From: Lachnospiraceae bacterium
Lineage (GTDB): Bacteria; Bacillota; Clostridia; Lachnospirales; Lachnospiraceae
Direction: 5' to 3'
NCBI GenBank assembly: GCA_024692715.1
Contig: JAILMH010000010.1
Location: 1-41,888 of the forward strand
Length of the DNA: 41,888 nt
Under the pieces are notes generated by a model. It was not told the DNA's origin, ran no database searches, and saw only the letters and a list, made by a program, of their open reading frames with translations. Of this stretch, positions 24,479 through 39,825 are shown one piece after another; position 1 is the stretch's first letter, and every line of letters starts with the position of its first letter. A program made the position numbers and the translations under genes.

Positions 24479-24754
24479 ATGCAAAAAGCTATGGATTTTG
24501 ATCTTTGGCTGGACTGGTTTATCGTTGATAATAAATTGAACATACAGGAGGTACTCCTGGAGGAGATCATTGACGGTCAGCCTTATAAGGTCAAAATGGT
24601 CGATTTTCTTAATAAAATAAGAAAAATGAATTTTTTGACGCAGCAGAAGGTCAAGGATGATATGTGTAAAGCACTGTATTCCGGCGGCAAGGTTAGCAAA
24701 GCATTAAAGGATGACTGCAGAGAGCTGATATCTTCAGGAAAGTTACTGCTTTGA
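24479..24754 (+). CDS. Small protein of unknown function heading the cobT operon (91 aa)
   Basis: A 91-residue helical, Lys- and Leu-rich soluble protein with an aromatic N-terminus (DFDLWLDWF) and two charged helices (VDFLNKIRKMNF, QQKVKDDMCKALYSGGKV). No signal or membrane segment. The start at 24479 is set by GGAGG six bases upstream; in-frame TTG and ATG codons further upstream have worse sites. Its stop overlaps the cobT start by four bases (TTGA), so it is translationally coupled to nucleotide-loop assembly genes. I do not recognise a family. It could be a regulatory or accessory protein; no enzyme motif supports a specific role. Confidence 0.65.
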   Translation: MQKAMDFDLWLDWFIVDNKLNIQEVLLEEIIDGQPYKVKMVDFLNKIRKMNFLTQQKVKDDMCKALYSGGKVSKALKDDCRELISSGKLLL

Positions 24755-25794
24755 TTAAAATTAATGAACCTTCAAAAGAAATCTATAAAAAGGCAAAGAT
24801 GAGATGGGACAGCATCGCGAAGCCTCTGGACGGAATGGGGCACTTTGAGGAGCTGATCTCACGGATCGCGGCTATTCAGAATACGACAGAGGTCGCGATC
24901 GATAAAAAATGTGTACTTATAATGTGTGCAGATAATGGTATCGTCGCTGAGAACATCAGTCAGTCAGGACAGGAAGTGACTGCGATCTGTGCAAAGAAAA
25001 TGGCTGAAGGAGAGACTTCAGTCTGCAGAATGGCGCAGAAAGTCGGTGCAGATATCGTACCGGTAGATATCGGGATAGTCTCAGAGGTGAATTTCGACGG
25101 TGTCCTTCAAAGAAATGTCCGTCGCGGTACAAGGGACTTTCTGATAGAGCCTGCAATGACAGAAGCTGAATGCAGGCAGGCAATCGAGACGGGCATCGGA
25201 CTTGTCAGAGAATATGCGGATAAAGGTTATAATATAATCGCCACCGGAGAGATGGGCATCGGTAATACAACGACGAGCAGTGCCGTGACGGCTGCGCTCA
25301 CGGGACTCAAGGTCAGTGAGGTTACAGGCCGCGGTGCAGGGCTTGATGACGAAAGACTTAAAAATAAGATAAATGTCATAGAAAAAGCGATTGAGAAATA
25401 TGATCTTAAGAATGCAGATGTAATGACGGTTCTCAGATGCGTTGGGGGCCTTGATATAGCGGCACTTACAGGAGTCTGTATAGGCGGAGCCCTGGCGGGA
25501 GTTCCGATTGTTCTCGATGGTATAATTTCGGATGTGGCGGCTCTCGCAGCAGAAAGGATAGCCCCCGGGGTTAAGAACTATGTTATCCCATCGCACATAG
25601 GTAAGGAGCCGGCTGCCATACATCTTAATAAACTGCTTGGACTGGAGCCTGTGATCCATGGAAATATGGCACTTGGAGAAGGAACAGGGGCTGTTATGAT
25701 GATGGGAATGCTAGATGTGGCTATGACAGTATATGATAGCTGTGAGCTTTTTGGAGACATAGCTGTTCAACAATATGAGAGGTTTAAGAAATGA
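24751..25794 (+). CDS. cobT: Nicotinate-nucleotide--dimethylbenzimidazole phosphoribosyltransferase
   Basis: Activates the lower-ligand base by phosphoribosyl transfer from nicotinate mononucleotide, forming the alpha-ribazole phosphate used in cobamide assembly. Signatures: ADNGIVAENISQSGQEVTA, MGIGNTTTSSAVTAALTG, VTGRGAGLDD and GEGTGA, whose Glu (about 310) is the catalytic base. Length 347 is normal. It starts at TTG, with AGGAAAG as ribosome site within the previous gene, and ends with an ATGA overlap into cobU. The window has no dimethylbenzimidazole synthesis gene, so the native lower ligand may be another base or be imported. Confidence 0.95.
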   Translation: MIKINEPSKEIYKKAKMRWDSIAKPLDGMGHFEELISRIAAIQNTTEVAIDKKCVLIMCADNGIVAENISQSGQEVTAICAKKMAEGETSVCRMAQKVGADIVPVDIGIVSEVNFDGVLQRNVRRGTRDFLIEPAMTEAECRQAIETGIGLVREYADKGYNIIATGEMGIGNTTTSSAVTAALTGLKVSEVTGRGAGLDDERLKNKINVIEKAIEKYDLKNADVMTVLRCVGGLDIAALTGVCIGGALAGVPIVLDGIISDVAALAAERIAPGVKNYVIPSHIGKEPAAIHLNKLLGLEPVIHGNMALGEGTGAVMMMGMLDVAMTVYDSCELFGDIAVQQYERFKK

Positions 25795-26318
25795 TCGTTC
25801 TGGTTATCGGCGGAAGCGGAAGCGGTAAATCAGAGTGGGCAGAAAAGCGTACGATAGAGCTTTCGGGTAATGACCGGAAGCTCTATTTTGCGACTATGCA
25901 AAACGATGGAGAAGAGGCAGTGAGCCGGATAGCGAGACACCGTGAAATGAGGAAAGATAAAGGGTTTCAGACAGTTGAAGTGCCCTTTGGTCTAAAGGCT
26001 CAATTGAAATCCGTCGGTGACTCTGATACCATATTGCTTGAGGATCTTTCAAATCTTGCGGCTAATTTAAGATTTTGGAAGAATATGACAGAAGAGGAAG
26101 TAAACAGGAAAATAACAGAAGAAATTTCTGCGGCAGCGAAATGCTCGGGGAATCTGGTCATAGTGTCAAATGACATTTTTAGAGACGGCACAGAGTATGA
26201 TGCTGAAACAGCGAGATACATATCGCTGCTTGGAAGGCTCAATATAGAGCTTGTCGGACTGGCGAACGAGGTTGTCGAAATAGTTGCAGGAATACCTGTT
26301 TTTTATAAAAAATCATGA
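25791..26318 (+). CDS. cobU: Adenosylcobinamide kinase / phosphate guanylyltransferase
   Basis: Phosphorylates adenosylcobinamide and transfers GMP to form GDP-cobinamide. P-loop GGSGSGKS at the N-terminus; RIARHREMR supplies the guanylated His region; LLEDLSNLAANLRFW and SNDIFRDGTEYD match the clostridial variant of the core. Length 175 is normal. It overlaps cobT and cobS by four bases each (ATGA). A second, shorter CobU-like gene follows two genes later. Confidence 0.93.
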   Translation: MIVLVIGGSGSGKSEWAEKRTIELSGNDRKLYFATMQNDGEEAVSRIARHREMRKDKGFQTVEVPFGLKAQLKSVGDSDTILLEDLSNLAANLRFWKNMTEEEVNRKITEEISAAAKCSGNLVIVSNDIFRDGTEYDAETARYISLLGRLNIELVGLANEVVEIVAGIPVFYKKS

Positions 26319-27079
26319 ATATATTAAAATCATTTTGCATTGCGCTGGCGATGTATTCCAGGATACCAGTGCCGATATTTGACTGGACTGAGGAAAATAT
26401 GAAATATGCTATAAGCTTTTTTCCATTTGTCGGTGTCATTATCATGGGGCTTTCTGTTCTCTGGTATTGGTTTGCGTCGGGGAGAGCAGAGGAAATAGTC
26501 ATTGCACTTGTTGGGATCGCGATCTCGTGTGTGATATCCGGTGGGATACATCTCGATGGCTACATGGATACTTCAGATGCTCTGAGTTCCCATTTGGAGA
26601 GAGAAAAAAAGCTCGAAATCTTAAAAGACCCTCATATCGGGGCATTTTCAGTTATTAGTATAATTACATATATGCTTGTGTTTGCCGGTGCATATACAGC
26701 GGCGGCAGCAAGTAGAACCGACATGATATTCTTGAGCTCGGGCTTTGTGCTTTCAAGGATTCTTTCGGGGCTGGCTGTAGTTTTATTTAAGAATGCAAAG
26801 AGGGATGGACTCTTATATACATTTGCAGACAGAAGCCATAAAAATGCTGTCAGGGTATCACTTGCAGCAGAGCTTATAATATATGCAGCTGTAATGGCTT
26901 TTTTTGGTGTATATGAAATGATCGCCATAACTGCATTGAATCTTGTTCTTTGGGGATATTATTATTTTAAGACAAAGAAGGAATTTGGCGGAATAACAGG
27001 AGATACCTGCGGGTGGTTTTCAAGCCTTTCAGAGCTTCTGACTGCGGTAATTGCCGGAGTATTCTGCATGATGAGGTAA
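26315..27079 (+). CDS. cobS: Adenosylcobinamide-GDP ribazoletransferase (cobalamin synthase)
   Basis: Integral membrane enzyme joining GDP-cobinamide with alpha-ribazole (phosphate). Signatures: CIALAMYSRIPVPIFDW at the N-terminus, GGIHLDGYMDTSDALSS with the metal-binding Asp residues, HIGAFSVISI, and GGITGDTCGW near the end; about six membrane helices. Length 254 is normal. ATGA overlap with cobU; the next gene follows after two bases. Confidence 0.94.
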   Translation: MNILKSFCIALAMYSRIPVPIFDWTEENMKYAISFFPFVGVIIMGLSVLWYWFASGRAEEIVIALVGIAISCVISGGIHLDGYMDTSDALSSHLEREKKLEILKDPHIGAFSVISIITYMLVFAGAYTAAAASRTDMIFLSSGFVLSRILSGLAVVLFKNAKRDGLLYTFADRSHKNAVRVSLAAELIIYAAVMAFFGVYEMIAITALNLVLWGYYYFKTKKEFGGITGDTCGWFSSLSELLTAVIAGVFCMMR

Positions 27080-27081
27080 AT

Positions 27082-27408
27082 ATGATCTTGATCTTAGGCG
27101 GCTTTGCGCAGGGAAAAACAGAATATGCAAAAAAGAAATATCCTGAAAGGCACATTGTGGATGACTATGCACAGAGTTTCAGGAAATGGCTTTCAGATGG
27201 AACTGATCCTGAAAGAGAAATTGCAGAAATATTGAGAAAGGAGCCGGAGTGTGTGATCATTTCAGATGAAGTTAGCTCCGGAGTCATACCTATGGATAAA
27301 TTTGAACGGGAATACAGGGAACGTCTTGGACGTAGCCTTGTGAAGCTTGCAGCAGAGGCAGAGCATGTAGAACGCATATTTGCGGGAATAGGCGTGGCGC
27401 TGAAATGA
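27082..27408 (+). CDS. Short second CobU-like protein (108 aa)
   Basis: A CobU-family protein that keeps the P-loop (GGFAQGKT, residues 5-12) and the C-terminal signature SDEVSSGVIPMDKFEREYR with LGRSLVKLAAEAEHV and FAGIGVALK, but lacks the middle section of about 60 residues that holds the guanylated His region (RHR) and the central acidic core. Start set at MILILGG, two bases after cobS. It may be a kinase without guanylyltransferase activity, or a regulatory relative of the full CobU encoded two genes upstream. It is co-transcribed and overlaps cbiB by four bases. Short CobU forms are, as far as I recall, met in other clostridia. Confidence 0.85.
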   Translation: MILILGGFAQGKTEYAKKKYPERHIVDDYAQSFRKWLSDGTDPEREIAEILRKEPECVIISDEVSSGVIPMDKFEREYRERLGRSLVKLAAEAEHVERIFAGIGVALK

Positions 27409-28379
27409 TAGTTTGTCATCTGATTTCGTTTGTTTTGGGGTTTGCACTTGATCTTTTGTTTGGAGATCCGAGGATACCGTTTCATCCGATAATACTGATA
27501 GGAAAGCTCATCAGTTTACTTGAAAAGCTTTTTTATCCCCGTAAAAGAAACAGTAGAGTCGAATTTATGGCGGGAATTGTACTTGAGATTTTTGTGATCG
27601 CAGTCACGGCGGCAGTTGTAACAGCTGTATTATACTATCTTTATAGGATGTCAGACGGAGCAGGAATTTTGGCAGAAGCGATTCTTACCTGGTTTGCTCT
27701 TGCAATGAAAAGCCTTAAGAAAGAAAGTATGAAGGTCTGGAAAGCTCTTAATGAGGGTGATGTCGATAAGGCAAGAAAGGCTGTTTCGATGATAGTCGGA
27801 AGAGATACTGAGGCTCTTGGCGCTGAGGGTATCACTAAAGCCGCGGTGGAAACTGTTGCGGAAAATGCTTCTGACGGAGTTATAGCTCCGCTTATATTTC
27901 TTGCGCTCGCCGGACCTGTCGGTGGATACATATACAAGGCAGTAAATACGATGGATTCGATGATCGGCTATAAAAATGACAGATATATGTATTTTGGCAG
28001 AGCAGCGGCGAAGACTGATGATGTGCTGAATTATCTTCCGTCAAGGATCACAGCGCTTCTAATGATTGCTGTCAGTATGTTTGCGGATGAGGCACTTGAC
28101 TGGAAAAATGCCTATAAGATATGGAAACGTGACAGAAGAAATCATGCAAGCCCTAATTCGGCGCAGGGTGAGGCTGTAATGGCAGGTGCGCTTGGGGTTC
28201 AGCTTGCAGGTGATGCAAAATATTTTGGCAAGATCGTAAAAAAGCCTACGATAGGAGATGCGTTAAGAACGGTGGAGGCAGAAGACATAGCAAGGGCTAA
28301 CAGGCTCATGGTATCTGCGTCAGTACTTGCGGAACTCATTTGCATCCTTGGAATTTTATTAGTTATTATGGTGATATAA
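27405..28379 (+). CDS. cbiB: Adenosylcobinamide-phosphate synthase
   Basis: Membrane protein attaching aminopropanol phosphate to adenosylcobyric acid. Signatures: FALDLLFGDPRIPFHPI at the N-terminus, SMIVGRDTEAL, TVAENASDGVIAPL, AVNTMDSMIGYKNDRY, FGRAAAKTDDVLNYLPSR, and HASPNSAQGEAVMAGALGV. Length 324 is normal, with about five helices. It overlaps the previous gene by ATGA and its stop shares one base with the cobD start. Confidence 0.95.
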   Translation: MIVCHLISFVLGFALDLLFGDPRIPFHPIILIGKLISLLEKLFYPRKRNSRVEFMAGIVLEIFVIAVTAAVVTAVLYYLYRMSDGAGILAEAILTWFALAMKSLKKESMKVWKALNEGDVDKARKAVSMIVGRDTEALGAEGITKAAVETVAENASDGVIAPLIFLALAGPVGGYIYKAVNTMDSMIGYKNDRYMYFGRAAAKTDDVLNYLPSRITALLMIAVSMFADEALDWKNAYKIWKRDRRNHASPNSAQGEAVMAGALGVQLAGDAKYFGKIVKKPTIGDALRTVEAEDIARANRLMVSASVLAELICILGILLVIMVI

Positions 28380-29404
28380 TGCACGGCGGAGATATATACA
28401 GAAACGATATAAAATACGATTTTTCGGTGAATATCAATCCGCTCGGCTGCCCGGAAAAGCTTAAAGAAGCAATGATAAAGGCGGTTGAGAGGGTTGAGGA
28501 GTATCCGGATATACGTTATGAAAGGCTTAAAAATGCCATTGCCGGAAAATACAGTACGGATGTGGAAAATGTACTTGTGGGAAATGGTGCATCAGAGCTT
28601 TTTATGGCAGTGCTTGAGGCGGTAAGACCCGGAAAAGTGCTGCTCACAGCGCCTTCATTCAGTGGTTATGAATATGCAGCTAATGCAGTTGGAGCTGAGG
28701 TAAAAAGATATTTTCTAAAAGATAAGCTGAATTTCAGGCTTGATGAAGACTTTTCAGAAAGCATCACAGATGATGTGGACTGTGTGATACTGGCAATTCC
28801 CAATAATCCCACCGGTGATATCGCAGATACTGGTTTAATAGAGAAAATTGCCGATACGGGAAAGCTTCTGATACTGGACGAGTGTTTTATATCCCTTACG
28901 GAAAAGAGTGAAAACAGTTTTATTTTTAGACTCAGGAATTATAATAATGTTATAGTTGTGAGATCTTTCACGAAGAGTTTTGCAATACCGGGAGTAAGGC
29001 TCGGCTATGCAGTGTGTGGTGATGAAGTGCTTGCCCGGAGGATAGGCGGCTGCCTTCCTGAGTGGAATTTATCGGTGCTGGCGGAGGAAGCCGGTCTTGA
29101 GGCTTTGGCTGACGAGGGATTTCTTAAAGACAGCAGAAAGATCATAGCAGCGGAGAGAGAATTTCTTTCTTTTGAGTTATCGGAGCTTGGGTTCAGAGTC
29201 ATTCCTTCAGAGGCTGATTATATACTTTTTTATGAAAAAAGTAATACGGGCTTAAAGGATAAACTTATCGAAAAAAAGATATTGATAAGAGACTGCAGTG
29301 ATTACTACGGGCTGGAAAATGGCTGGTACAGGATCGCAGTAAAAAAACACGAAGATAATATAGAGCTTATTAAGAGATTAAAGGAAATAAGATATGGAAC
29401 TTGA
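28379..29404 (+). CDS. cobD: L-threonine-O-3-phosphate decarboxylase
   Basis: PLP enzyme making (R)-1-amino-2-propanol O-phosphate, the linker used by CbiB encoded just upstream. Signatures: MHGGDIYR, FSVNINPLG, GNGASELF, IPNNPTGD, and SFTKSFAIPGVRLGYA whose Lys (about 199) binds PLP. At 341 residues it is near the usual 360. The ATG at 28379 overlaps the cbiB stop by one base and begins the family's normal N-terminus. Confidence 0.94.
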   Translation: MHGGDIYRNDIKYDFSVNINPLGCPEKLKEAMIKAVERVEEYPDIRYERLKNAIAGKYSTDVENVLVGNGASELFMAVLEAVRPGKVLLTAPSFSGYEYAANAVGAEVKRYFLKDKLNFRLDEDFSESITDDVDCVILAIPNNPTGDIADTGLIEKIADTGKLLILDECFISLTEKSENSFIFRLRNYNNVIVVRSFTKSFAIPGVRLGYAVCGDEVLARRIGGCLPEWNLSVLAEEAGLEALADEGFLKDSRKIIAAEREFLSFELSELGFRVIPSEADYILFYEKSNTGLKDKLIEKKILIRDCSDYYGLENGWYRIAVKKHEDNIELIKRLKEIRYGT

Positions 29405-30023
29405 ATATGTCCTTCCGGGAGATATCGAGAAGCGAAGCTTCGAGATAATTGACGCTGAGCTTAAAAATAACGGAATACATTTAGATGATAAAAATCGCCT
29501 TGTGATAATGCGCGCTATCCATACCAGTGCAGACCTTGAGTATGCAAGGACGCTAAGATTCAGCGAGGATGCTGTGGCAAAGGCACAGGAGCTTATAAAG
29601 AACGGCGCGGATATTGTGACGGATACGAATATGGCACTGTCGGGGATAAGTAAAAAAACTCTCGCCAGATACGGAGGAGAGGTACACTGCTTTATGGCTG
29701 ACCCGGAAGTGGCAGCCAAAGCTTCTGAGATGCAGGTCACAAGGGCCTATATAAGCATGAGAAAAGCGGCCGAGACAATTAAAAAGCCGGTCATATTTGC
29801 GATAGGAAATGCACCGACAGCTTTGGTGAGTCTTCATGAGATGATGGAGGAGGGCAGCTATCAGCCGGCCTTCGTCATAGGCGTTCCGGTGGGTTTTGTG
29901 AATGTTGTAGCGGCAAAAGAGCTTATTGTGAACGATAAGGTGGATTCTATAGTGAACATTGGAAGAAAGGGCGGCAGCAACATTGCAGCAGCCATAGTCA
30001 ATGCATTGTTATACACGATCTGA
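29394..30023 (+). CDS. cbiC: (Cobalt-)precorrin-8 methylmutase
   Basis: Moves the C11 methyl group to C12, giving (cobyrinic) hydrogenobyrinic acid. Signatures: IMRAIHTSADLEYA with the catalytic His at about residue 43, DIVTDTNMALSGISK, RAYISMRKA, VIFAIGNAPTAL and VIGVPVGFVNVVAAKE. Length 209 is normal. It overlaps cobD by 11 bases, AAGGAAA serving as ribosome site. Confidence 0.95.
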   Translation: MELEYVLPGDIEKRSFEIIDAELKNNGIHLDDKNRLVIMRAIHTSADLEYARTLRFSEDAVAKAQELIKNGADIVTDTNMALSGISKKTLARYGGEVHCFMADPEVAAKASEMQVTRAYISMRKAAETIKKPVIFAIGNAPTALVSLHEMMEEGSYQPAFVIGVPVGFVNVVAAKELIVNDKVDSIVNIGRKGGSNIAAAIVNALLYTI

Positions 30024-30039
30024 TCATTAAGAGGAAATC

Positions 30040-31080
30040 ATGGCGGATATCATCAGCTTTACAGGAAAAGGATTATTGCTGGCACTTAAGATAAAGCGTG
30101 TGCTGGGAGAAGAAGGACCTGTATATACGAAATTTTCAGAAATCGATAAAAGGGAATTGCCTGAAAGGGTGGTCTATGTCGAAGAAAAGCTTGGAGACTG
30201 GACCAATGAGCGGTTTGAAAATCATACACCTATAGTGTTTATAGGAGCGTGCGGGATCGCTGTAAGGACGATCGCACCGTATGTTAGAGATAAATTCAGC
30301 GATATTCCGGTGATAGTTCTCGATGAAAACGGAAAATTCTGTATCCCACTGCTTTCAGCACATATAGGTGGTGCAAAGAAACTTGCGGAAACAATAGCAG
30401 AAAAGATTGGGGCAGTGCCTGTGATAACGACTGCCACCGATGTGAATGATCTTTTTGCTGTAGATGTTTTTGCAGCTGAGAATGACCTTTTGATACTGAA
30501 TCGTGAAGGAGTAAAAAAGGTATCGTCAAAGATCCTGGCCGCCGGTGAGGTCACGATGAGGCTTGATGGCGGAAAAGTGAAAGGCAGGGTTCCTGATGAG
30601 GTAAAGATCACTAAAAAGAAAAAGGCAGATATCATCATATCGCCTAGAGAGCTTGAAGAGGGAAGCTGTCTTCTTCAGCTTGTGCCGAAGGCGGTATATG
30701 CAGGGATCGGCTGCAGGAAAGATAAGCCTGAGGCGGATATACGAAAGATGTTTTACGATGTTTTAGAGCAAAACGGAATAGAGAGAGGGGCTGTGGCCGG
30801 AGCGGCGACCATCGATATAAAAGAGCACGAGCCGGGCTTAAGACAGTTTGTAAGGGCGGAAGAGCTGAGCTTTCAGACTTTCCCGGCTGAAGTTCTGAAA
30901 GAAGTTCAGGGCGAATTCAGCGTTTCAGATTTTGTCTCTAAAACAGTCGGAGTTGATAATGTATGCGAACGTGCTGCGGCAGCGGCCTGTGGCAAAAACT
31001 ACAGGCTGCTTGTGCCTAAAAATGCCGGGAACGGAGTCACGGCGGCGTTTGCAGTTAAGGACTGGAGCGTGAGATTTTGA
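30040..31080 (+). CDS. cbiG: Cobalt-precorrin-5A hydrolase
   Basis: Opens the delta-lactone of cobalt-precorrin-5A, releasing acetaldehyde, the hallmark of the oxygen-independent pathway. Three parts are seen: N-terminal (FTGKGLLLALKIK, VFIGACGIAVRTIAP), central (LLSAHIGGAKKLAETIA, VITTATDVN) and C-terminal (GIGCRKDKPEADI, ATIDIKEHEPGLRQF, LLVPKNAGNGVTAAFAV). Length 346 is normal. AGAGGAAA precedes the ATG. Overlaps the next gene by TTGA. Confidence 0.94.
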   Translation: MADIISFTGKGLLLALKIKRVLGEEGPVYTKFSEIDKRELPERVVYVEEKLGDWTNERFENHTPIVFIGACGIAVRTIAPYVRDKFSDIPVIVLDENGKFCIPLLSAHIGGAKKLAETIAEKIGAVPVITTATDVNDLFAVDVFAAENDLLILNREGVKKVSSKILAAGEVTMRLDGGKVKGRVPDEVKITKKKKADIIISPRELEEGSCLLQLVPKAVYAGIGCRKDKPEADIRKMFYDVLEQNGIERGAVAGAATIDIKEHEPGLRQFVRAEELSFQTFPAEVLKEVQGEFSVSDFVSKTVGVDNVCERAAAAACGKNYRLLVPKNAGNGVTAAFAVKDWSVRF

Positions 31081-33077
31081 AAAAAGCAGCTAATGTGCTT
31101 ATATTCGGTGGTACAACTGAAGGCAGGAAGGCAGCGGAATTTCTCGATGAGACGGAAATTTCCGGTATTGTATCAGTTGCAACAGAGGCCGGAGCTGAAG
31201 AACTGGAAAACCTTGGGAATATAAGGGTTCTGGTCGGCAGAAGAGATGAGCAGGGAATTGAAAAGCTTATAGAAGAAGAAAAGATCGGGCTGATAATAGA
31301 TGCTGCCCATCCTTTTGCAGAAGAATTAAGGAAAAATATAGCGGCTGCTGCAGTGAACAGCGGAGCCAGTCTTATAAGGCTTAAAAGAGGCACATCAGGC
31401 GGAAATGGTGAAAATTCAACGTACTTTTCAAGTACAGAAGAGTGCGCAGAGGCTCTGAGGGAGATCGATGGAAATATTCTTTTGACCACAGGAAGTAAGA
31501 CCATAAAAGAATATACGGACAGACTTGATGCTGACAGGCTCTATGTGCGTATACTTCCGGTAAATGCGTCAATAGATGCGGTCAAAGAGGCAGGACTGCG
31601 CAATGAACATATAATTGCCATGCAGGGCGTTTTTTCTAAGGAAATGAACAGAGCTCTGATAAGAGAGTTTAATATTAAATGCCTTGTAACAAAGGAAACC
31701 GGAGAGAACGGCGGATTTCCGGAGAAACTGCAGGCGGCCGATGCTGAGGGTATAAAAAGCTATATAATAGCTGACCCTGACGAATCGGAGGGTGTAAGCT
31801 TTGCAGTGCTTAAGAAAATGCTCAAAGAGGAGTATGGCATCAGCAGAAAAAGCGAAGTGGTACTGATAGGAATGGGAAGCGGAGACCCGGATCAGCTTGG
31901 ATCAGCTGCCTGTGAGGCACTGAAAACCGCTGATTTTGTAATCGGTGCCGGAAGGCTTATAGAAGCTGTTTCGGGCAGATTTCAAAAAATAAAGGAATAT
32001 GATCCGGAAAAAATCCTTAATATCATCTTAAAAAGAAATCCCGGAGAGAGAACAGTTGTGCTTTATTCCGGGGATACGGGCTTTTACAGCGGTGCCTCAG
32101 GTCTTATAAAGCTTCTTTCAAAAGAGGGTATAAAGTACAGGATTTTGCCGGGACTTTCAAGTATTCAGCTGCTTTCAGCGCGGAGCGGTATCGCATGGGA
32201 TGATGCGAAGATAGTGAGTATTCATGGACGTGATGCAGATTTTACAGGAGCGGTAAAGGAAAACAGTAAAGTTTTCATGCTCTTGAATAATGCCTCGGAT
32301 GTGAGAAATATTGCTGAGGAGCTTATTTCCGACGGAGTTTATAATGCTGAGATTGTGATCGGGATAAGGCTTGGATATCCTGACGAAAAGGTTGTCAGAG
32401 CAGATATTTCGGAGTGTGCAGGAATGAGCCTTGAAGGGATCGCCTGCTGCTTTATCTTAAATAAAAAGACATATTCTGAGGTCATCACGCCGGGACGGAG
32501 TGACGAAGCTTTTGTTCGTGGAAATGTACCAATGACAAAAAAAGCTGTGAGAGAGCTTTCTGTCTGTGCTTTGAAGCTTAGAAGGGATTCTGTTCTTTGG
32601 GATATTGGAGCCGGAACGGGATCGATATCTGTTGAAACTGCACTTTTGAGCCGAAATATTAAAGTAGTGGCAGTAGAGAGAAATCAAGAAGCAATTGAGC
32701 TGATCAAAGAAAATTGTGTCAAGGCAGGGCTTCACAACGTGGAGGTGGTCGAAGGGGAAGCCCCGGAGGCCCTTAAAGAGCTTGAATGTCCGACGCATGT
32801 TTTTATAGGAGGCAGCGGAGGCCATTTAAGAGAGATACTAAATCTGCTTACGGGCTTTGGGAAACGCATAAGGGTGGTCATTAATGCGGTTAGCCTTGAG
32901 ACGATCTCTGAGACAAAGGAAGTATTGGATACTGTGGAACATACTGATGAATCTGTTGTTCTGGCGCAGATCTCAACAGCGTCTAAGGCCGGAAATTATC
33001 GCCTGATGAGAGCTGAGAATCCGGTCTATGTGGTGTCGTTTGAAATAGGGGGGTATAAATGCATTATCCAAGAATAA
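31077..33077 (+). CDS. cbiJ-cbiE-cbiT: CbiJ-CbiE-CbiT fusion: precorrin-6A reductase and C5,15-methyltransferase/decarboxylase
   Basis: A 666-residue trifunctional protein. Residues of about 1-250: NAD(P)H-dependent (cobalt-)precorrin-6A reductase (FGGTTEGRKAAEF, DAAHPFAEEL, LLTTGSKTIKEY, LVTKETGENGGF). About 260-460: CbiE methyltransferase (IGMGSGDPDQLGSAACEAL, LYSGDTGFYSGA). About 475-666: CbiT SAM-dependent decarboxylating methyltransferase (DIGAGTGSISVETALL, FIGGSGG, INAVSLETI). CbiE-CbiT joining is common (CobL); adding the reductase in one chain lets three successive steps be held together. Start is TTG with GGAG ten bases upstream, overlapping cbiG. GGGGGG near the 3' end serves cbiA. 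Confidence 0.94.
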   Translation: MKKAANVLIFGGTTEGRKAAEFLDETEISGIVSVATEAGAEELENLGNIRVLVGRRDEQGIEKLIEEEKIGLIIDAAHPFAEELRKNIAAAAVNSGASLIRLKRGTSGGNGENSTYFSSTEECAEALREIDGNILLTTGSKTIKEYTDRLDADRLYVRILPVNASIDAVKEAGLRNEHIIAMQGVFSKEMNRALIREFNIKCLVTKETGENGGFPEKLQAADAEGIKSYIIADPDESEGVSFAVLKKMLKEEYGISRKSEVVLIGMGSGDPDQLGSAACEALKTADFVIGAGRLIEAVSGRFQKIKEYDPEKILNIILKRNPGERTVVLYSGDTGFYSGASGLIKLLSKEGIKYRILPGLSSIQLLSARSGIAWDDAKIVSIHGRDADFTGAVKENSKVFMLLNNASDVRNIAEELISDGVYNAEIVIGIRLGYPDEKVVRADISECAGMSLEGIACCFILNKKTYSEVITPGRSDEAFVRGNVPMTKKAVRELSVCALKLRRDSVLWDIGAGTGSISVETALLSRNIKVVAVERNQEAIELIKENCVKAGLHNVEVVEGEAPEALKELECPTHVFIGGSGGHLREILNLLTGFGKRIRVVINAVSLETISETKEVLDTVEHTDESVVLAQISTASKAGNYRLMRAENPVYVVSFEIGGYKCIIQE

Positions 33078-34432
33078 TGGTCGCAGCACCAAAGAGTAAT
33101 TCGGGAAAGACACTTTTGACCTGTCTTCTTATCAAGCTTATGCTTGGAAGTAAGTTCAAGACAGCGGCATTTAAGTGCGGTCCTGATTATATTGATCCTA
33201 TGTTTCATAAAAGGGTTCTTGGAGTTCCGTCGAAAAATCTGGATACGTTCTTTACAGATGTTAAAAAGACGAGAAAGCTCTTCATGGAACACGCGGCAAA
33301 CGTTGATATTTCAATAATTGAGGGCGTGATGGGCCTTTACGACGGCCTTGGAGGTGTGAGTGAAAAGGCTTCTTCTTATGATGTAGCCAGAGCTCTAAGA
33401 TGTCCGATAATTTTTGTATGCGATGTCCACGGAATGGGAGGAACTTCTCTTGCGGCGGAAATAAGGGGCTTCATGGATTATGACAGAGACAACCTTATCA
33501 AGGGAATTTTCCTGAATGGAATAACTGCAGCTTCATATGAGTATGTAAAGAGGCATCTTGAAAGTGAATTGAAGATACCGGTCATTGGATATTTTCCATA
33601 TGATAAAAATCTTAAATTCGATACAAGACACCTTGGCCTTGTCATGCCGGATGAGATCAAAGATCTGAATCTCAAACTGAATATGGCAGCGGGAAATCTT
33701 GCAAGGAATATAAACTTTGAAAAGCTTCTTGAGATCGCACAGGAAGCCGAGGATGTCAACTGGGAAACTCTTCGCCACAGAGTACCTACAAAAGAGCTGG
33801 TCTCAGTCGGTATCGCAGCGGATGAGGTATTCAGATTTTATTACGAGGATAACCTTAATATACTGAGAGATTTTGGCTGTAAGCTTGTTCCGTTTTCTCC
33901 ACTGCATGATAAAGAGATACCTAAGGGGCTGCAGGGCCTTATCTTTTACGGAGGTTATCCAGAGCTTTATGCGAAGCAGCTTTCTGAAAATACGAGCATG
34001 ATGGATTCCATAAGAAGGGCTATAGCTGCGAATATGCCTACTATCGCTGAATGCGGCGGCTTCATGTATCTGGGGGATTCTATTGAAGCAGAGGACGGAA
34101 AAGAGTATCCGATGGTCGGAGCTGTACATTCAAAGTTCTTTAATACAGGGCATTTAGTACGGTTCGGTTATATGAGCGTTTCAGAAAAAGAGGATTCATT
34201 CCTTGGAAACGGTCGTGCGATACGCGGACATGAGTTCCATTATTATAATGGAACGGAAAATGGCGGAGACTGTGTTGCATATAAGCCGATCAGGGCAAAG
34301 ACCTGGGATTGTGTTTTTGTAGATGATTATCACTGGTGGGGCTGGCCTCATCTTTATTATTCATCATGTCCGTCCTATGCGGAAAATTTCATCCGTAAGT
34401 GCCGGAGGTTTGATAGTGAAAAACTCGAGTAA
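33059..34432 (+). CDS. cbiA: Cobyrinate a,c-diamide synthase
   Basis: Glutamine-dependent amidation of the a and c side chains of cobyrinate. Signatures: VAAPKSNSGKTLLTCLLI (P-loop variant), FKCGPDYIDPMFH, EGVMGLYDG, SSYDVARAL, and a glutaminase domain with AECGGFMYLGD (Cys about 331) and RGHEFHYY. Length 457 is normal. It overlaps the previous gene by 19 bases with a GGGGGG site, and its end overlaps the Cys-rich gene. A/T-rich sequence follows the operon. Confidence 0.95.
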   Translation: MHYPRIMVAAPKSNSGKTLLTCLLIKLMLGSKFKTAAFKCGPDYIDPMFHKRVLGVPSKNLDTFFTDVKKTRKLFMEHAANVDISIIEGVMGLYDGLGGVSEKASSYDVARALRCPIIFVCDVHGMGGTSLAAEIRGFMDYDRDNLIKGIFLNGITAASYEYVKRHLESELKIPVIGYFPYDKNLKFDTRHLGLVMPDEIKDLNLKLNMAAGNLARNINFEKLLEIAQEAEDVNWETLRHRVPTKELVSVGIAADEVFRFYYEDNLNILRDFGCKLVPFSPLHDKEIPKGLQGLIFYGGYPELYAKQLSENTSMMDSIRRAIAANMPTIAECGGFMYLGDSIEAEDGKEYPMVGAVHSKFFNTGHLVRFGYMSVSEKEDSFLGNGRAIRGHEFHYYNGTENGGDCVAYKPIRAKTWDCVFVDDYHWWGWPHLYYSSCPSYAENFIRKCRRFDSEKLE

Positions 34433-34667
34433 ATTTTTCGAGAACAGAGATTGTAAGTTTTTTCCCTGCCATAAGCTGGAGGGAGATTTCAACTGTTTAT
34501 TTTGTTATTGCCCATTGTATTTTTTAGATTCTTGTCCCGGAAGTCATACGTGGATCGAAAGAGATGGATATAAGATCAAAAACTGTATAGACTGTACCTG
34601 GCCGCACAGGCCGGAAAATTATGATATCATGATGACCATTCTAAAAAATAAATGTAGAAAAAATTAA
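34416..34667 (+). CDS. Cysteine-rich small-domain protein (84 aa)
   Basis: An 84-residue protein matching what I recall as the 'Cys-rich small domain' family (Pfam PF04071), often beside corrinoid genes: FFENRDCKFFPCHK, FNCLFCYCPLYFLDSC, NCIDCTWPHRPENYD. Nine cysteines before the tail plus His give a probable metal site, perhaps zinc, cobalt or Fe-S. The GTG start at 34416 is fixed by GGAGG seven bases upstream, inside the end of cbiA. It is the last gene of the corrinoid operon. Its role is unknown; metal delivery or corrinoid handling is inference. Confidence 0.8.
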   Translation: MKNSSKFFENRDCKFFPCHKLEGDFNCLFCYCPLYFLDSCPGSHTWIERDGYKIKNCIDCTWPHRPENYDIMMTILKNKCRKN

Positions 34668-34725
34668 AAAAAGGGAAAGTTTCATCAAAATGCCCTCATG
34701 GATTGAACATAGAACATTTGAAACG

Positions 34726-34755
34726 TTGTTTTATTATAATTCACTATGGTATACT
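34726..34755 (+). promoter_or_regulatory. Promoter of the mecA / corrinoid-activation operon
   Basis: TTGTTT (34726-34731), 18-bp spacer, TATACT (34750-34755). The start near 34762 gives an ~80-base leader in which CCGTAA (34805-34810) can pair with TTACGG (34822-34827) just before the ribosome site. Confidence 0.6.
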
Positions 34756-34841
34756 TAAATCACGAAGTACAGCATTTTATGCGGCTTATAAAGGTTGTAT
34801 GTAACCGTAATTGTAGTTTTTTTACGGAGAGGAAGCTGCCG

Positions 34842-35666
34842 ATGAAATTTACTAAACTTAACAAAACAGACATCAGATGCGTCCTTACTGAACAGGAGCT
34901 TTTCGATAATGGTCTAAATCTGGATGATATCATGGCAAAGACAGAAGCCACCAAAAGGTTTTTCAGACAGATCATGGACCAGGCAGCCTTAAAGCTGGGG
35001 ATTATCAGAGAAGACGGAATTCGTATGGCATCTGCGCAGATCAGTGTACTGGAAGACAGAAGTATTTCTATCGTTTTTCATGAAGCTGACCTTGAGGATG
35101 CACTCAAGCACGTAACAGGAGGAGATCCTAAAAAAGCGGCACAGCTTAAGGACAGGATCAATGAGGTGGTTCAAAACCAGAAGGATAAGATCCCGGAACT
35201 TCCGATATCGATGAAGAGAGAGTTGCTCGATATGATGGAAGAACAGCTTAAACTCGACGGTGGAGGATCAACTGAAGCATTGAGTGAGATACGCAGGCTC
35301 AGGACGGAGCTTGATGAGCAGGAAGAAGATGAAGAAAACAAGGATATTATTTCGCAGATAAAAGAGAGAGTAAATAAATCCTTTGTTATCAGGTTTGAGA
35401 CACTTGAGGATTGTATTGGATATGCTAAGGCATGTACAGTAAAAAGAAAGATAGTCAGCAGGCTATATAAGTTCGTTCAGGACGAAGCCTATTACATGTT
35501 TGTTCTGCACAGTGTTCTTCCGGACAATATGTACGAAAGCATAATGAACATAGCATGTGAATTCGGTGAGGTCGTTACATTAAGACCCGCAGCAAGGCAG
35601 TTCCTGATTGAAAATAGTGATGTGATAATTGCAGACATGGCTATCAGAACACTCAGGGAAATCTAA
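34842..35666 (+). CDS. mecA: MecA-family adaptor protein
   Basis: Adaptor that in Bacillus delivers substrates such as ComK to ClpC-ClpP. The N-terminal domain (MKFTKLNKTDIRCVLTEQEL, EATKRFFRQIMDQA) and the C-terminal domain (FVIRFETLEDCIGYAKAC, SRLYKFVQDEAYYMFV, ADMAIRTLREI) match MecA, separated by a charged linker with about 60 Glu/Asp/Lys-rich residues. Length 274 against ~220 in Bacillus, the extra length being in the linker. The start was moved to 34842 because GAGAGGAAG lies just upstream; the longer frame starts inside the -10 region. Five bases separate it from the next, corrinoid-related, gene, so they are likely one operon. Confidence 0.85.
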   Translation: MKFTKLNKTDIRCVLTEQELFDNGLNLDDIMAKTEATKRFFRQIMDQAALKLGIIREDGIRMASAQISVLEDRSISIVFHEADLEDALKHVTGGDPKKAAQLKDRINEVVQNQKDKIPELPISMKRELLDMMEEQLKLDGGGSTEALSEIRRLRTELDEQEEDEENKDIISQIKERVNKSFVIRFETLEDCIGYAKACTVKRKIVSRLYKFVQDEAYYMFVLHSVLPDNMYESIMNIACEFGEVVTLRPAARQFLIENSDVIIADMAIRTLREI

Positions 35667-35671
35667 TTAAA

Positions 35672-36304
35672 ATGAGAATATGGAGCTATAAAGAACCGTC
35701 TGCCGTGTGCAGTACGGTTCTTGCTATGATAGGATGTAAAAAGACAGATCCCTCATATGATGAGTTTGTGAGAACCTTTGCTGAAGTCAGAGATGAAGCA
35801 TTGGAGACTCTTGATATAAAAGCCGGAGCCATAAGGGCTGCGATACCTGCAGATTTTCCAAAGTCCGGAATCTTATATGGCAAAGATCTGATCTTCTTTA
35901 TGATAACAGCAGGTCGTAGAATAAGTGATCTGGCTGAAAAATATATGGATGAGGGCGAATATATTAAGGGCATGATCATCAGCGGAATTGCGGATGAATG
36001 CCTTTTTTCGTGTGAAAAAGAAGCATTTAAGGATATTGAAAAATATGCAAGAATAAATAATATTGGAATAGAGGGAATATTTGATGCACCGAAGGATTAC
36101 AGTTTATCTTTGCATAAGCTGATCTCCTTCAGGCTAAAGGCACGGGAAAATTTAGGAATAACACTGACTGAAGGTGATATGCTTGAACCGGTCAAAAGCT
36201 ATGCCTGTGCACTGGTACTGACTAAAGATACAGAAAAAATGGTGATCCATCATTCATGCAATAATTGTACATTGAAGGAATGCGCATATCGTAATGGAAC
36301 GTGA
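35672..36304 (+). CDS. Methionine synthase activation-domain-like protein with altered SAM motif
   Basis: A 210-residue stand-alone relative of the reactivation domain of B12-dependent methionine synthase (MetH): the helical core (AGRRISDLAEKYMDEGEYIKG, IISGIADEC), GITLTEGDMLEPVKSYACAL, and a C-terminal CNNCTLKECAYR cysteine cluster typical of the free-standing clostridial form. The activation domain of MetH binds SAM through an R-x-x-x-G-Y type motif (RPAPGY in E. coli; SPGYGD in many free-standing forms). At the equivalent place this protein reads APKDYSLSLH, so the motif seems lost. It overlaps the RACE gene by 11 bases. Probably helps reactivate a corrinoid protein, perhaps without methylating it. 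Confidence 0.7.
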   Translation: MRIWSYKEPSAVCSTVLAMIGCKKTDPSYDEFVRTFAEVRDEALETLDIKAGAIRAAIPADFPKSGILYGKDLIFFMITAGRRISDLAEKYMDEGEYIKGMIISGIADECLFSCEKEAFKDIEKYARINNIGIEGIFDAPKDYSLSLHKLISFRLKARENLGITLTEGDMLEPVKSYACALVLTKDTEKMVIHHSCNNCTLKECAYRNGT

Positions 36305-37769
36305 AGATGTCGAAATAAAATGGAATAAAGAACGGGTCATAAAGGGAAAAAAGGGTCGGAGACTTCTTGATACTTTAAGAGATAACGGGGTGTTTATTTC
36401 TGCGCCGTGCGGCGGAAACGGGACCTGTGGAAAGTGCAGAGTTAATGTCGACGGTGAAAGCTTTCTGGCATGTGATTATATTCTGGAAAGGGATATAGAG
36501 GCCTTCCCGGAGCTTTCAGAGGAGAACATGCAGGCCGTATCTGCGGAATATGAAAGTAAAGCTGATATCAGGCTGCCCGGGCTTGCGATAGATCTTGGGA
36601 CAACGACTATAGCCCTGGCTGTAGTGGATATTTCTGACGGAAGGATAGTCGGGTCAGAGAGCTGCATCAATCATCAACGGAGCTTTGGTGCTGATGTGAT
36701 CTCGAGAATAGATGCAGCAGTCTCAGGGAGGGCTATGCTGCTCAGAAGCACAGTTCAGAAGGATATTCTCAATGAAGCCGGGCTTCTTATGGAAAAGACC
36801 GGCAGCGGACTTGGGACATTAAAAAAAATTGTCATTTCGGGAAATACCACAATGCTTCAGCTGCTTATGGGATGGCCTGCAGATGGTCTTGCGGCATATC
36901 CTTTTTCTCCGTTTAGGATCGAGGGCGGAATATTTTCCTTTAACGAAGTTTTTAATTCTTCTGAAAGCGATGCAGAAGTGATGATACTTCCCGGAGTAAG
37001 TGCTTTTGTCGGAGCGGACATAGTTTCCGGGGCAGAGAATACTGGCATTGCAAAGTCTGAAAGTATGCGGGCTCTGATAGATCTTGGAACCAATGGAGAA
37101 ATGGTCGTCGGAAATTCTGAAAAGCTTTGGGTGACTTCTACGGCAGCGGGCCCTGCGTTTGAAGGAGGAAATCTTCGCTATGGAATGCCCGGAGTCAGCG
37201 GTGCGATCAGTCATGTAAATTTTGAAAATGGGAAATGCGCTGTCCAAACCATAGGTGGTGGCGAAGCAAAGGGAATCTGTGGCTCCGGTCTCGTTGAGGC
37301 TGTTTACGAATTGCGAAAAAACGATATAATAGATCGAAACGGGATTTTTGCAGACGAGTACTCAAAGGGATATCCGCTGAGCTTCGGAGCAAGGGATATT
37401 TATATAACCCAGGGCGATATCCAGGAATTCTTGCTGGCGAAAGCTGCGATAAGGACGGGCTTTGAAATTTTGCTCATGAAGGCCGGGTTAAAGGCGGAGG
37501 AGCTTGCAGATATTTATATAGCCGGGGGCTTCGGCTTTTTCCTTGACTTAGAGAAGGCAGCGGGGATAGGACTTTTGCCGGCAGAACTTAAGAAAAAAAT
37601 GAAAGCTGTGGGAAACAGCTCTCTTAAGGGTGCTGTGGATGCTCTCTCTAGCTGGCCGGCAGCAGAATTCGGAGAGACTGCGGCGAAAGCAGAAAGCTTC
37701 GAGCTTGCAGAAATTTCTGAGTTTAATGAAAGATATATAGAAAATATGAGGCTTGATATAAGTGAATAA
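36294..37769 (+). CDS. RACE-type ASKHA corrinoid activator with [2Fe-2S] domain (DUF4445)
   Basis: Reductive activator of corrinoid-dependent proteins. Residues of about 30-75 form a ferredoxin-like [2Fe-2S] domain with cysteines in APCGGNGTCGKCRV and a fourth in FLACDY. Residues of about 97-480 form an ASKHA ATPase: AIDLGTTTIALAVVDISDG, VISGNTTMLQLLMG, LIDLGTNGEMVVGN, GICGSGLVEAVYEL and IYIAGGFGFFLDLEKA. Such proteins couple ATP hydrolysis to reduction of Co(II) to Co(I). At 491 residues it is shorter than RamA-type proteins, lacking part of the linker between the ferredoxin and ASKHA parts. It overlaps genes on both sides, so a three- or four-gene unit is made together. Target corrinoid protein is not in the window. 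Confidence 0.9.
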   Translation: MEREDVEIKWNKERVIKGKKGRRLLDTLRDNGVFISAPCGGNGTCGKCRVNVDGESFLACDYILERDIEAFPELSEENMQAVSAEYESKADIRLPGLAIDLGTTTIALAVVDISDGRIVGSESCINHQRSFGADVISRIDAAVSGRAMLLRSTVQKDILNEAGLLMEKTGSGLGTLKKIVISGNTTMLQLLMGWPADGLAAYPFSPFRIEGGIFSFNEVFNSSESDAEVMILPGVSAFVGADIVSGAENTGIAKSESMRALIDLGTNGEMVVGNSEKLWVTSTAAGPAFEGGNLRYGMPGVSGAISHVNFENGKCAVQTIGGGEAKGICGSGLVEAVYELRKNDIIDRNGIFADEYSKGYPLSFGARDIYITQGDIQEFLLAKAAIRTGFEILLMKAGLKAEELADIYIAGGFGFFLDLEKAAGIGLLPAELKKKMKAVGNSSLKGAVDALSSWPAAEFGETAAKAESFELAEISEFNERYIENMRLDISE

Positions 37770-38445
37770 GGAAAAGACAGAGATACAGATAAATGCTGAA
37801 AGAGCGATAATCAAGAGCCAGAGAAAGGAACTCTGGACAAAATATGTAAAAGCGGTAAAGCACTACGGGCTTCTCGATGATGGAGATGTGATAGCACTTG
37901 ACATAGATGGAAGCAGTAATGCCTTTTTGACGGCAAAGCTTTTTCATGAGATGCAGATGCATGGGACAAATAATTTCAAGGTGAAATATTTTCTGAAGGA
38001 TAAAAGTGAAGAAACCGTAAAAATGGCTGAAAGCCTCGGGATAATTCTGGAACCGGATACTTCAGAAAGAGCTGAGTGCAATAAAACTGCCGGGGTTGAA
38101 AGCCATGATGATGTCATCGCATCTATACTTTCAGGGATGATATATGAGGGAAGAGTTTCCTCTATAATGCCAAGATGCACGGAAGAGGATGGCGAAGTGA
38201 TAAGACCGCTTTATTTAATAAGAGATGAATTTATTGATAAATGGGCTTTTTCAAGTGGGATCAATGCACCCCGCCACATCGTGTCGGAATTGATCGAGAA
38301 TACCAAGAAGCTGGTAGAAGGGTTGAAGGAGACCAATCAGTTTGTTGAGTCAAATATCTTTAGAAGTATGGAGAATGTCCATGTAGACACGCTTATAGGC
38401 TATATGAGGAATGGAGAAAAAGAATCTTTTCTTGATAATTACTGA
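37762..38445 (+). CDS. TtcA-like protein lacking the PP-loop (probable pseudoenzyme)
   Basis: A 227-residue protein whose C-terminal half follows TtcA-type tRNA thiolases: SHDDVIASILSGMIYEGRVS, VIRPLYLIRDEFIDKW, NIFRSMENVHVDTLIGYM and the final SFLDNY. The PP-loop, SGGKDS in active members, reads DIDGSSNAF (residues 47-55), the catalytic CxxC-bearing segment is deleted, and GHHxDD is changed to ESHDD. It is about 60 residues shorter than the family. ATP pyrophosphatase and thiolation activity are therefore unlikely. GTG start with GAGG ten bases upstream; overlaps the RACE gene by eight bases. A structural, regulatory or new catalytic role in the corrinoid-activation unit is inference. Confidence 0.75.
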   Translation: MNKEKTEIQINAERAIIKSQRKELWTKYVKAVKHYGLLDDGDVIALDIDGSSNAFLTAKLFHEMQMHGTNNFKVKYFLKDKSEETVKMAESLGIILEPDTSERAECNKTAGVESHDDVIASILSGMIYEGRVSSIMPRCTEEDGEVIRPLYLIRDEFIDKWAFSSGINAPRHIVSELIENTKKLVEGLKETNQFVESNIFRSMENVHVDTLIGYMRNGEKESFLDNY

Positions 38446-38451
38446 AAGACC

Positions 38452-38480
38452 TTGCATGGCTTAAAGAATCGTGATAAAAT
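38452..38480 (+). promoter_or_regulatory. Sigma-A-type promoter of rpmE
   Basis: TTGCAT (38452-38457), 17-bp spacer, TAAAAT (38475-38480). The first residues of the promoter lie just after the preceding stop codon. Confidence 0.8.
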
Positions 38481-38486
38481 TGAAAA

Positions 38487-38575
38487 GCTGTTGGTGATTC
38501 TATGCTTAAATCACCGAAAATTTTATTTTGATAGAGCCGCGGGTTAGAAATCTACGGCGGGAAAGGGAACACAAA
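38487..38575 (+). promoter_or_regulatory. Structured rpmE leader, possible L31 autoregulatory element
   Basis: The leader holds GGTGATT (38493-38499) paired with AATCACC (38509-38515) followed by a U-rich stretch, and a second hairpin with CCGC (38537-38540) and GCGG (38557-38560) just before the ribosome site AAAGGGA. L31 leaders in Firmicutes are known to bind the protein; identity with those motifs was not tested. Confidence 0.45.
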
Positions 38576-38779
38576 ATGAGAGAAGAAATCCAGCCAAAAT
38601 ATTATCAGGCAACTGTAACATGCAACTGCGGTAACACATTCGTTACTGGTTCTACAAAGCCTGAGATTCACGTAGAAATTTGTTCTAAGTGCCATCCGTT
38701 CTACACAGGACAGCAGAAGGCTCTCCGTACTGATGGACGTATCGAGAGATTCAACAAGAAGTACGGCATGAATAAGTAA
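38576..38779 (+). CDS. rpmE: 50S ribosomal protein L31
   Basis: Ribosomal protein of 67 residues, zinc-binding form: cysteines in TCNCGNTF and [13 protein letters not shown]. The start [10 protein letters not shown] matches the usual N-terminus and has AAAGGGA upstream; the longer frame from 38528 is in the leader. It stands first in a conserved clostridial order with DUF1385, prmC and prfA. A long hairpin follows. Confidence 0.96.
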
Positions 38780-38814
38780 TTAATGAAGTGATTTTATTGA
38801 GTCACTCATTAGCG

Positions 38815-38856
38815 AAACCGCTTGGGCTCATGAGGGCTCAGGCGGTTTATCTTTTA
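38815..38856 (+). terminator. Hairpin terminator after rpmE
   Basis: AAACCGCTTGGGCTC (38815-38829) pairs over 15 bp (some G-U) with GGGCTCAGGCGGTTT (38834-38848), ATGA loop, tail ATCTTTT. An extra hairpin lies at 38782-38810. Downstream genes may be reached by read-through, since no clear promoter follows. Confidence 0.7.
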
Positions 38857-38880
38857 AATAGATATTTATAAGGAGTATTA

Positions 38881-39825
38881 ATGAGCAATACTAAACAGTG
38901 CAGCGCTAAATATTCAGGAATAGGCGGACAGGCAGTAATGGAAGGCGTTATGATGCGCAACATGGAAAAATTTGCTGTCGCAGTTCGCAGACCTAACGGA
39001 GAAATTGCCGTTGTAAAGGACGAATATAAAGGAGTCGGCCCTAAAGCGGTATATAAAATGCCTTTTATCAGAGGTGTGTTTTCATTTGTAGATTCCCTTG
39101 TACTTGGTATGAAAACACTGAATCTTTCCAGTGATTTCTATATGGAAGATGAAAATGGTGCGAAGGAGGAAAAGACAGCAGGAGATTCTGTGATGAGCGG
39201 AGTTATCATGGCGGTGGCTATGATGCTTGCTATCGGTCTTTTTATGGTACTTCCCTACTTTGCGTCATTATTGTTTAAGAAATGGATAACTGAGCCGCAT
39301 CTGCTGGCCCTTGTTGAAGGTGTCATCCGAATGGCGCTCTTTGTATGCTATATTCTGGCAATTTCAAAGATGGAAGATATCAAGAGGGTTTTCATGTATC
39401 ATGGTGCGGAGCATAAATGTATCAACTGTATCGAGACAGGCCATGATCTCACAGTGGAAAATGTAAGAGCTGCTTCGAGAGAGCACAGAAGATGCGGTAC
39501 GAGCTTCCTTTTATATGTTATGGTCATTTCTATCCTGCTATTTGCAGTGATCCAGGTTTCTAATCCATTGATGAAGGTAGTTCTTCGAATCGTGCTCATT
39601 CCGGTGATAGCGGGAATTTCTTTTGAATTTATCCGACTTGCCGGAACAAGTAATAACCGCTTTGTGAGAATGCTTTCTGTTCCTGGACTTATGATGCAGA
39701 AGCTGACAACTGCGGAGCCGGATGATAAAATGATTGAAGTCGGTATTGCTTCGGTCGAGGCTATATATGACTGGAGAAAATATCTTGAAGAGAATTTTCC
39801 GGACAGACAGGCAGAGGCAATTTGA
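38881..39825 (+). CDS. DUF1385 membrane protein (YqhQ family)
   Basis: A 314-residue protein of unknown function. The family start GIGGQAVMEGVMMRN is clear, followed by FIRGVFSFVDSLVLGMK. Four membrane helices are visible (about 100-130, 142-163, 205-225, 235-255). The conserved YHGAEHKCINCIETG and HRRCGTSFLL segments contain His and Cys, suggesting a metal site. AAGGAG is well placed. Its place between rpmE and prmC-prfA is common in clostridia, but no link in function is known. Confidence 0.9.
   Translation: MSNTKQCSAKYSGIGGQAVMEGVMMRNMEKFAVAVRRPNGEIAVVKDEYKGVGPKAVYKMPFIRGVFSFVDSLVLGMKTLNLSSDFYMEDENGAKEEKTAGDSVMSGVIMAVAMMLAIGLFMVLPYFASLLFKKWITEPHLLALVEGVIRMALFVCYILAISKMEDIKRVFMYHGAEHKCINCIETGHDLTVENVRAASREHRRCGTSFLLYVMVISILLFAVIQVSNPLMKVVLRIVLIPVIAGISFEFIRLAGTSNNRFVRMLSVPGLMMQKLTTAEPDDKMIEVGIASVEAIYDWRKYLEENFPDRQAEAI

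Follow-up and report, generated by a model that had tools for sequence, protein, structure and literature searches.

Two adjoining genes of a Lachnospiraceae bacterium probably encode the parts of an ATP-driven reactivator. Its target would be a corrinoid protein in the oxidised state, in all likelihood the core methionine synthase (MetH without its activation domain). The window considered here is the whole 41,888-nucleotide stretch of contig JAILMH010000010.1 (C55) in assembly GCA_024692715.1, which comprises 2.09 Mb in 79 contigs and is 90.5% complete. Four consecutive genes on its plus strand encode MecA, a relative of the MetH activation domain that we call Act-R, a RamA-like ATP-dependent corrinoid reductive activator (RACE), and a TtcA-like pseudoenzyme. 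We propose that Act-R and RACE are the two working parts. The computed basis of this proposal is homology, motif loss, recurrent fusion or adjacency of the two genes, a core MetH without a detected S-adenosylmethionine (SAM)-type activator in sister genomes, and a family-wide avoidance between that type of activator and RACE. Physical contact between the two proteins, the docking role of Act-R, the use of ATP in the source species and MetH as the target there are what we infer.

Act-R and its RACE partner

Act-R (35672..36304, plus strand) scores only 15.7 bits against the activation-domain model PF02965, below the cut-off of 25, and a PF02965 search of the source genome returned no match, missing even the Act-R of the unit itself. 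A mixed profile (A2) built from both Act subfamilies, Act-R and the MetH-adjacent Lachnospiraceae activators, matches structure 1j6r at 4.4e-26, and its match to methionine synthase 1msk is weaker, at 0.0012; a profile of Act-R alone matches 1j6r at 6e-4. Judged by these profile matches, Act-R is a distant homologue of the MetH activation domain. The SAM motif, known as RxxxGY, which presumably holds the reactivation tyrosine, reads RFSPGYGD in relatives. In Act-R it is replaced by DAPKD, so that the alignment bears out an earlier note on this DNA, in which the SAM motif was thought to be replaced, and EAP- or DAP-type sequences occupy the site in many rows of the Act-R clade. PMC10567725 reports a universally conserved tyrosine as important in MetH reactivation.

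Profile matches to Act numbered 77, or 61 after overlapping copies were collapsed, and the tree was built from 60 rows, excluding that of G141 (24 bits, in an open reading frame (ORF) beside RACE). The 21 rows with a SAM motif and the 37 Act-R rows fall on opposite sides of this tree, with branch support of 100/99 each, and two divergent rows without the motif, G082 and G121, cluster with the SAM side. The motif is missing in 37 of 37 Act-R rows, also under a wider search pattern. By tree and alignment Act-R is thus a conserved subfamily with motifs of its own. We therefore reject the idea of the earlier note that it is an eroded enzyme relative.

The C-terminal tail of Act-R, residues 194-204 (positions 36251-36283), carries the motif HxCx2Cx4C. 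Of the 28 Act-R rows that are not short, 27 share CxxCx4C and one has CxxCx5C instead, and a histidine stands two residues before the cysteines in 25 of the 28. The motif was entertained as a novelty of Act-R and rejected, because it is also present in 20 of 21 SAM-type rows, many of which have an extra cysteine upstream. Some SAM-type Acts of the local test described below lack it as listed, so the tail is not required there. It is possibly an Fe-S or Zn site.

The second partner, RACE (36294..37769, plus strand), exceeds the cut-offs of all three of its domain models: Fer2 (27.7 bits, cut-off 21; E 2.7e-6), which covers the [2Fe-2S] domain and its cysteines, the RACo middle domain PF17651 (133.8 bits; E 5.7e-39) and the ASKHA C-terminal domain PF14574, RACo_C_ter (226.7 bits; E 3.4e-67). 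RACE aligns to the RACo structure 3zyy (E 1.5e-67), both in the segment CGGNGTCGKC and over the ASKHA region. The [2Fe-2S] cysteines and ASKHA motifs read in the sequence earlier are therefore real, and on its domain content the protein is a clear member of the RamA/RACE/RACo family, predicted to reduce Co(II) corrinoids with ATP.

The pairing of Act-R with RACE was followed in a family sample of 120 genomes, roughly one per genus, and a genus sample of 48 genomes. Strong Act carriers, defined as E 1e-20 or better to a profile built from Act-R (A1), number eight in the family sample, and in all eight the Act is fused to or adjoins RACE. Six are fusions (G015, G090, G093, G096, G110 and G078), and in the last of these the fusion ORF overlaps the core metH ORF by 20 bases; in the source genome (G000) and G067 the two genes are separate neighbours. 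Within the genus, 31 Act matches were found in 26 genomes, and 17 of them are fused to or beside RACE. By their surroundings the 31 comprise eight MecA-Act-RACE loci including that of the source, nine short Acts behind MecA, five fusions, four adjacent pairs without MecA, two Acts with RACE 3-6 kb off, one Act alone, one Act followed by an intact TtcA gene (G138) and the weak match of G141 beside RACE. The earlier note had pointed to the neighbours of RACE in related genomes and to the aligned motifs as the places where its reading could fail. An Act-like protein is recurrently present there and fused in several relatives, the TtcA-like protein was seen beside RACE only in the source species and Lachnospiraceae bacterium KH1T2, and neither the SAM motif nor the PP-loop is intact on alignment.

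Methionine synthase as the likely target

Seven sister genomes share the MecA-Act-RACE arrangement (assemblies 98, 99, 86, 81, 100, 76 and 90% complete). In each of them MetH matches TIGR02082 only to position 862-875, and this core MetH is the sole TIGR02082 match over the corrinoid region, although the model does detect free corrinoid proteins in other genomes. Each has a single Act, of the Act-R type and without the SAM motif; searches of the seven genomes with TIGR02082 and the Act profile found no free corrinoid protein and no SAM-type Act. The MetH of Lachnospiraceae bacterium KH1T2 has four domains and no Met_synt_B12 match. Among the matches listed, most MetH rows end near TIGR02082 position 860-890 and so are without an activation domain, the exceptions being G045, which reaches 1182, and two rows that reach 923 and 934 through stops. 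The co-occurrence of three genes with such a MetH, which the earlier note had put forward as a check, holds in all seven sisters for the Act-RACE pair; the TtcA-like gene was seen at this locus in KH1T2 alone among them.

The weaker Act matches of the family sample, which are not of the Act-R type, lie within 800 bases of core MetH in 35 of 38 cases. RACE is found at E 1e-20 in 65 of the 120 genomes. Cross-tabulated, 7 genomes carry both a SAM-type Act and RACE, 31 the Act only, 58 RACE only and 24 neither (Fisher p 1.2e-7); A1 served as the Act profile here, and its sensitivity for SAM-type Acts is lower. Free corrinoid proteins that could need RACE are present in at least four of the seven genomes with both (G005, G038, G063, G081). 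A local test applied the mixed profile to the neighbourhood of MetH in 20 of the 58 RACE-positive and 20 of the 24 RACE-negative genomes, chosen among the matches listed for MetH and having no A1 Act match. It found an Act in 2 of 20 RACE-positive and 13 of 20 RACE-negative genomes (Fisher p 8e-4), and the SAM motif, or one closely resembling it, is present in all 15 of these Acts. It thus appears that RACE takes the place of the SAM-type activator.

According to PMC10567725, the activation domain of MetH lies over the cobalamin while the enzyme is being reactivated, and the reduced cofactor receives a methyl group from SAM. For an O-demethylase system, PMC6739815 describes how ATP and the activator shift the potential of the corrinoid upwards, from about -530 mV to -250 mV, which lets a [2Fe-2S] cluster deliver its electron. 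RamA-like DUF4445 proteins show cofitness with MetH in Desulfovibrio and are needed for methionine synthesis in Phaeobacter, as stated in the portion of PMC5764234 at hand. We hypothesize that Act-R would keep the activation-domain fold as a docking piece over the corrinoid domain, that the [2Fe-2S] cluster of RACE would donate the electron, and that ATP would make the reduction of Co(II) to Co(I) possible. Methylation by SAM would then no longer be needed to pull the reaction, and the SAM site may have been lost for that reason. The SAM-independent reactivation suggested in the earlier note fits the absence of the motif from every Act-R row; the TtcA-like subunit that it included is not supported.

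More tentatively, and with rather more doubt than confidence, we propose a history in which one branch of the activation domains abandoned SAM, became linked to the ATP-driven RACE by fusion or in an operon, and now aims it at cobalamin proteins. In such a history the cysteine tail may hold a further Fe-S cluster that relays electrons, and the level of the activator may be under the control of MecA-ClpCP.

Several observations weigh against a reactivator of MetH made of Act-R and RACE. The source assembly, roughly 90% complete, yielded no MetH and no B12-binding domain in searches with TIGR02082 and PF02310, and it is one of only two among the 48 genus genomes without a TIGR02082 match. The sequences that flank MetH in KH1T2 also have no full match in it, only one weak stretch of 65 bases, so that loss of metH and a gap in the assembly are indistinguishable in the source species. 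Three of the seven sister assemblies are 76-86% complete, which weakens the absences noted for them. No Act match was found in 22 of the 48 genus genomes. One genome of the genus, G079 (L033/L150), has RACE and core MetH and no Act match; Act-R is thus not always needed, and RACE may work without it. RACE is not near the Act-R that stands beside TtcA in G138, and it is not adjacent at six of the nine short-Act loci, the other three lying within 142 bases of a contig end. The avoidance statistics ignore kinship beyond the sampling of about one genome per genus. AlphaFold models of Act-R and the TtcA-like protein, built from two-row alignments, reached a mean pLDDT (predicted local distance difference test score) of 54 and 52, too poor for use. 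Last, some fusions stand beside a free corrinoid protein and not beside MetH, namely four of six in the family sample (G090, G093, G096 and G110, among the matches listed) and two of five in the genus (G151 and G154).

These fusions bear most directly on the possibility that Act-R and RACE reactivate some other corrinoid protein, such as that of a methyltransferase, and not MetH. Taken over family and genus, 6 of 11 fused Act-RACE genes adjoin free corrinoid proteins among the matches listed, and the pair is for this reason probably a general corrinoid-activation module, serving MetH here. MetH is the sole corrinoid methyl carrier detected by TIGR02082 in all seven sisters, at 76-100% completeness, which argues against a different target in this lineage, and we consider such a target unlikely, if less so than the alternatives that follow.

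MecA and the TtcA-like protein

The first gene of the unit encodes MecA (34842..35666, plus strand; the listed ORF opens at an earlier ATG, 34746). It matches the Pfam MecA family with 133.8 bits (cut-off 22.5; E 8.8e-39) and falls far below the cut-offs of the NCBIfam MecA equivalogs. MecA directly precedes Act at 17 loci of the genus, the source locus included, and RACE adjoins at 8 of the 17; MecA is a conserved neighbour of Act in this genus. In the tree the MecA-linked Acts, 17 in all, cluster together (94/74, or 99/89 with G138 included), and within this cluster MecA has been kept beside every Act. The main role of Act-R could then lie with MecA/ClpC, as its partner or its substrate, in regulation or the sensing of corrinoids, and its link with RACE would be secondary; at least 6 of the 17 loci have no RACE next door. 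However, other lineages have Act-RACE fusions and no adjacent MecA. The nine short Acts (191-196 amino acids; L172-L180, from nine genus genomes), which lie directly 3' of MecA and have no SAM motif, form one clade (100/100) that keeps the cysteine tail in 0 of 9, as expected of secondary loss. We regard a primary role with MecA as doubtful, somewhat more so than a different corrinoid target. In two of the short-Act loci the gene order is DegV-MecA-Act-GalK, where DegV and GalK are our presumed labels.

The last gene of the unit (37762..38445, plus strand, GTG start) encodes a protein that scores 43.7 bits against NF007972 (cut-off 272) and, aligned with the TtcA proteins found in this family, shows about 30-37% identity. 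An alignment of 34 rows bears out the loss of the PP-loop seen earlier in the sequence: SGGKD(S/A) is present in 32 rows, the two exceptions being the source species and KH1T2, and DIDGSSNA replaces SGGKDS in the TtcA-like protein. The Fe-S cysteine motifs have gone too, with the PCxxC region (present in 31 of the 34 rows) deleted and CAC absent. An intact rhodanese-TtcA is encoded elsewhere in the source genome (L192). Placement of the TtcA-like protein in a tree was uninformative, as its branch is very long. Between the source species and KH1T2 its gene has an NG86 dN (nonsynonymous divergence) of 0.19 and a dS (synonymous divergence) of 1.9, which is near saturation, and a dN/dS of about 0.1; the gene is under purifying constraint between these two species. 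They are also the only ones in which it was seen beside RACE; neither the six remaining MecA-Act-RACE loci nor any further RACE locus retrieved showed it. We therefore reject it as a general component of the unit, and it is a recent accessory.

At a separate locus (L171:8500-10017, G138), an intact TtcA with PP-loop, PCxxC and CAC begins 3 bases after an Act-R, and the 17 kb of sequence covered at this locus contain no MecA or RACE match.

The earlier note had joined Act-R, RACE and the TtcA-like protein in a three-subunit machine. Overlapping genes in two species, the low dN/dS at a dS near saturation and the intact TtcA after Act-R in G138 speak for such a complex, but the gene was not seen at the other RACE loci retrieved, and we find the complex improbable. 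That Act-R still binds SAM through changed residues for normal reductive methylation, RACE serving something else, agrees with its membership in the same homologous family as the SAM-type activators but is very hard to credit when the motif is absent from 37 of 37 Act-R rows, whereas the 21 rows on the SAM side and 15 of 15 local-test Acts have it.

Genomic surroundings and known systems

The coordinates agree with the earlier note that the four plus-strand genes follow each other with spacings of +5, -11 and -8. Its claim of one promoter is not confirmed: a consensus scan lists no plus-strand promoter-like site in 34668-34841; over 34400-39000 it found 15 promoter-like sites, where shuffled sequence gave 10.3 on average. 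KH1T2, which belongs to the same genus and has the closest named locus found, has the four genes in identical order. There MecA is followed by a gap of +9, the overlaps of -11 and -8 are unchanged, and the proteins have amino-acid identities of 96 (MecA), 76 (Act), 66 (RACE) and 76 percent (TtcA-like).

Upstream of the unit lies a cobalamin biosynthesis cluster (24751..34432, plus strand), assigned by Pfam and by NCBIfam matches of which several are below curated cut-offs, with CobT, CobU, CobS, CbiB, CobD, CbiC, CbiG, CbiJ-E-T and CobB/CobQ-like genes. It includes a full-length CobU-like gene at 25791-26318, besides which a small ORF at 27013-27408 overlaps the cobS-like gene and matches the CobU family model in the C-terminal third only. 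No Rfam match at gathering thresholds occurs in 1-41888, hence no cobalamin riboswitch was detected despite this cluster. Between cluster and unit stands a gene for a Cys-rich small domain protein (PF04071; 34323..34667, plus strand; Pfam E 2.9e-22), of which a blastp relative lies near 17 of 17 MecA-Act loci. Genes for L31 and a DUF1385 protein follow the unit, and two further genes on this side we label provisionally PrmC and RF1. A terminator-like hairpin of 15 pairs (38815-38848) is found 3' of L31; the scan lists none between the TtcA-like gene and L31.

Among known systems, TM0269 (PDB 1j6r) and the Lachnospiraceae counterparts beside core MetH are, like Act-R, separate genes, and they are homologous to it over most of the domain. 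TM0269 is said to be a stand-alone activation protein serving a MetH that lacks the domain. In contrast to this type, Act-R has no SAM motif and is linked to RACE, and to metH only in G078. RACE shares its [2Fe-2S] domain, middle domain and ASKHA domain with RamA/RACE/RACo (DUF4445), described as a single-protein activator in the literature consulted, whereas here an activation-domain relative forms a second part, fused or adjacent. The RamA-like proteins of Phaeobacter and Desulfovibrio are likewise DUF4445 proteins that serve a MetH without the PF02965 domain; the extra factor in Phaeobacter is DUF1638, and the portion of PMC5764234 at hand reports no activation-domain relative. The TtcA-like protein shares a C-terminal segment of recognisable homology with the tRNA 2-thiocytidine synthetase TtcA but is without its SGGKDS PP-loop, PCxxC and CAC.

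Among the titles and abstract openings returned by searches of an open-access library, none describes a SAM-less activation domain joined to RACE. To our knowledge, how anaerobes keep core MetH active has been little tested. In the family data two alternatives avoid each other: RACE, and an activator of the SAM type next to metH. The hybrid of Act-R and RACE links both, and through it the function that the activation domain has besides SAM binding can be tested directly. Our analysis suggests that these bacteria repair methionine synthase with ATP instead of S-adenosylmethionine.

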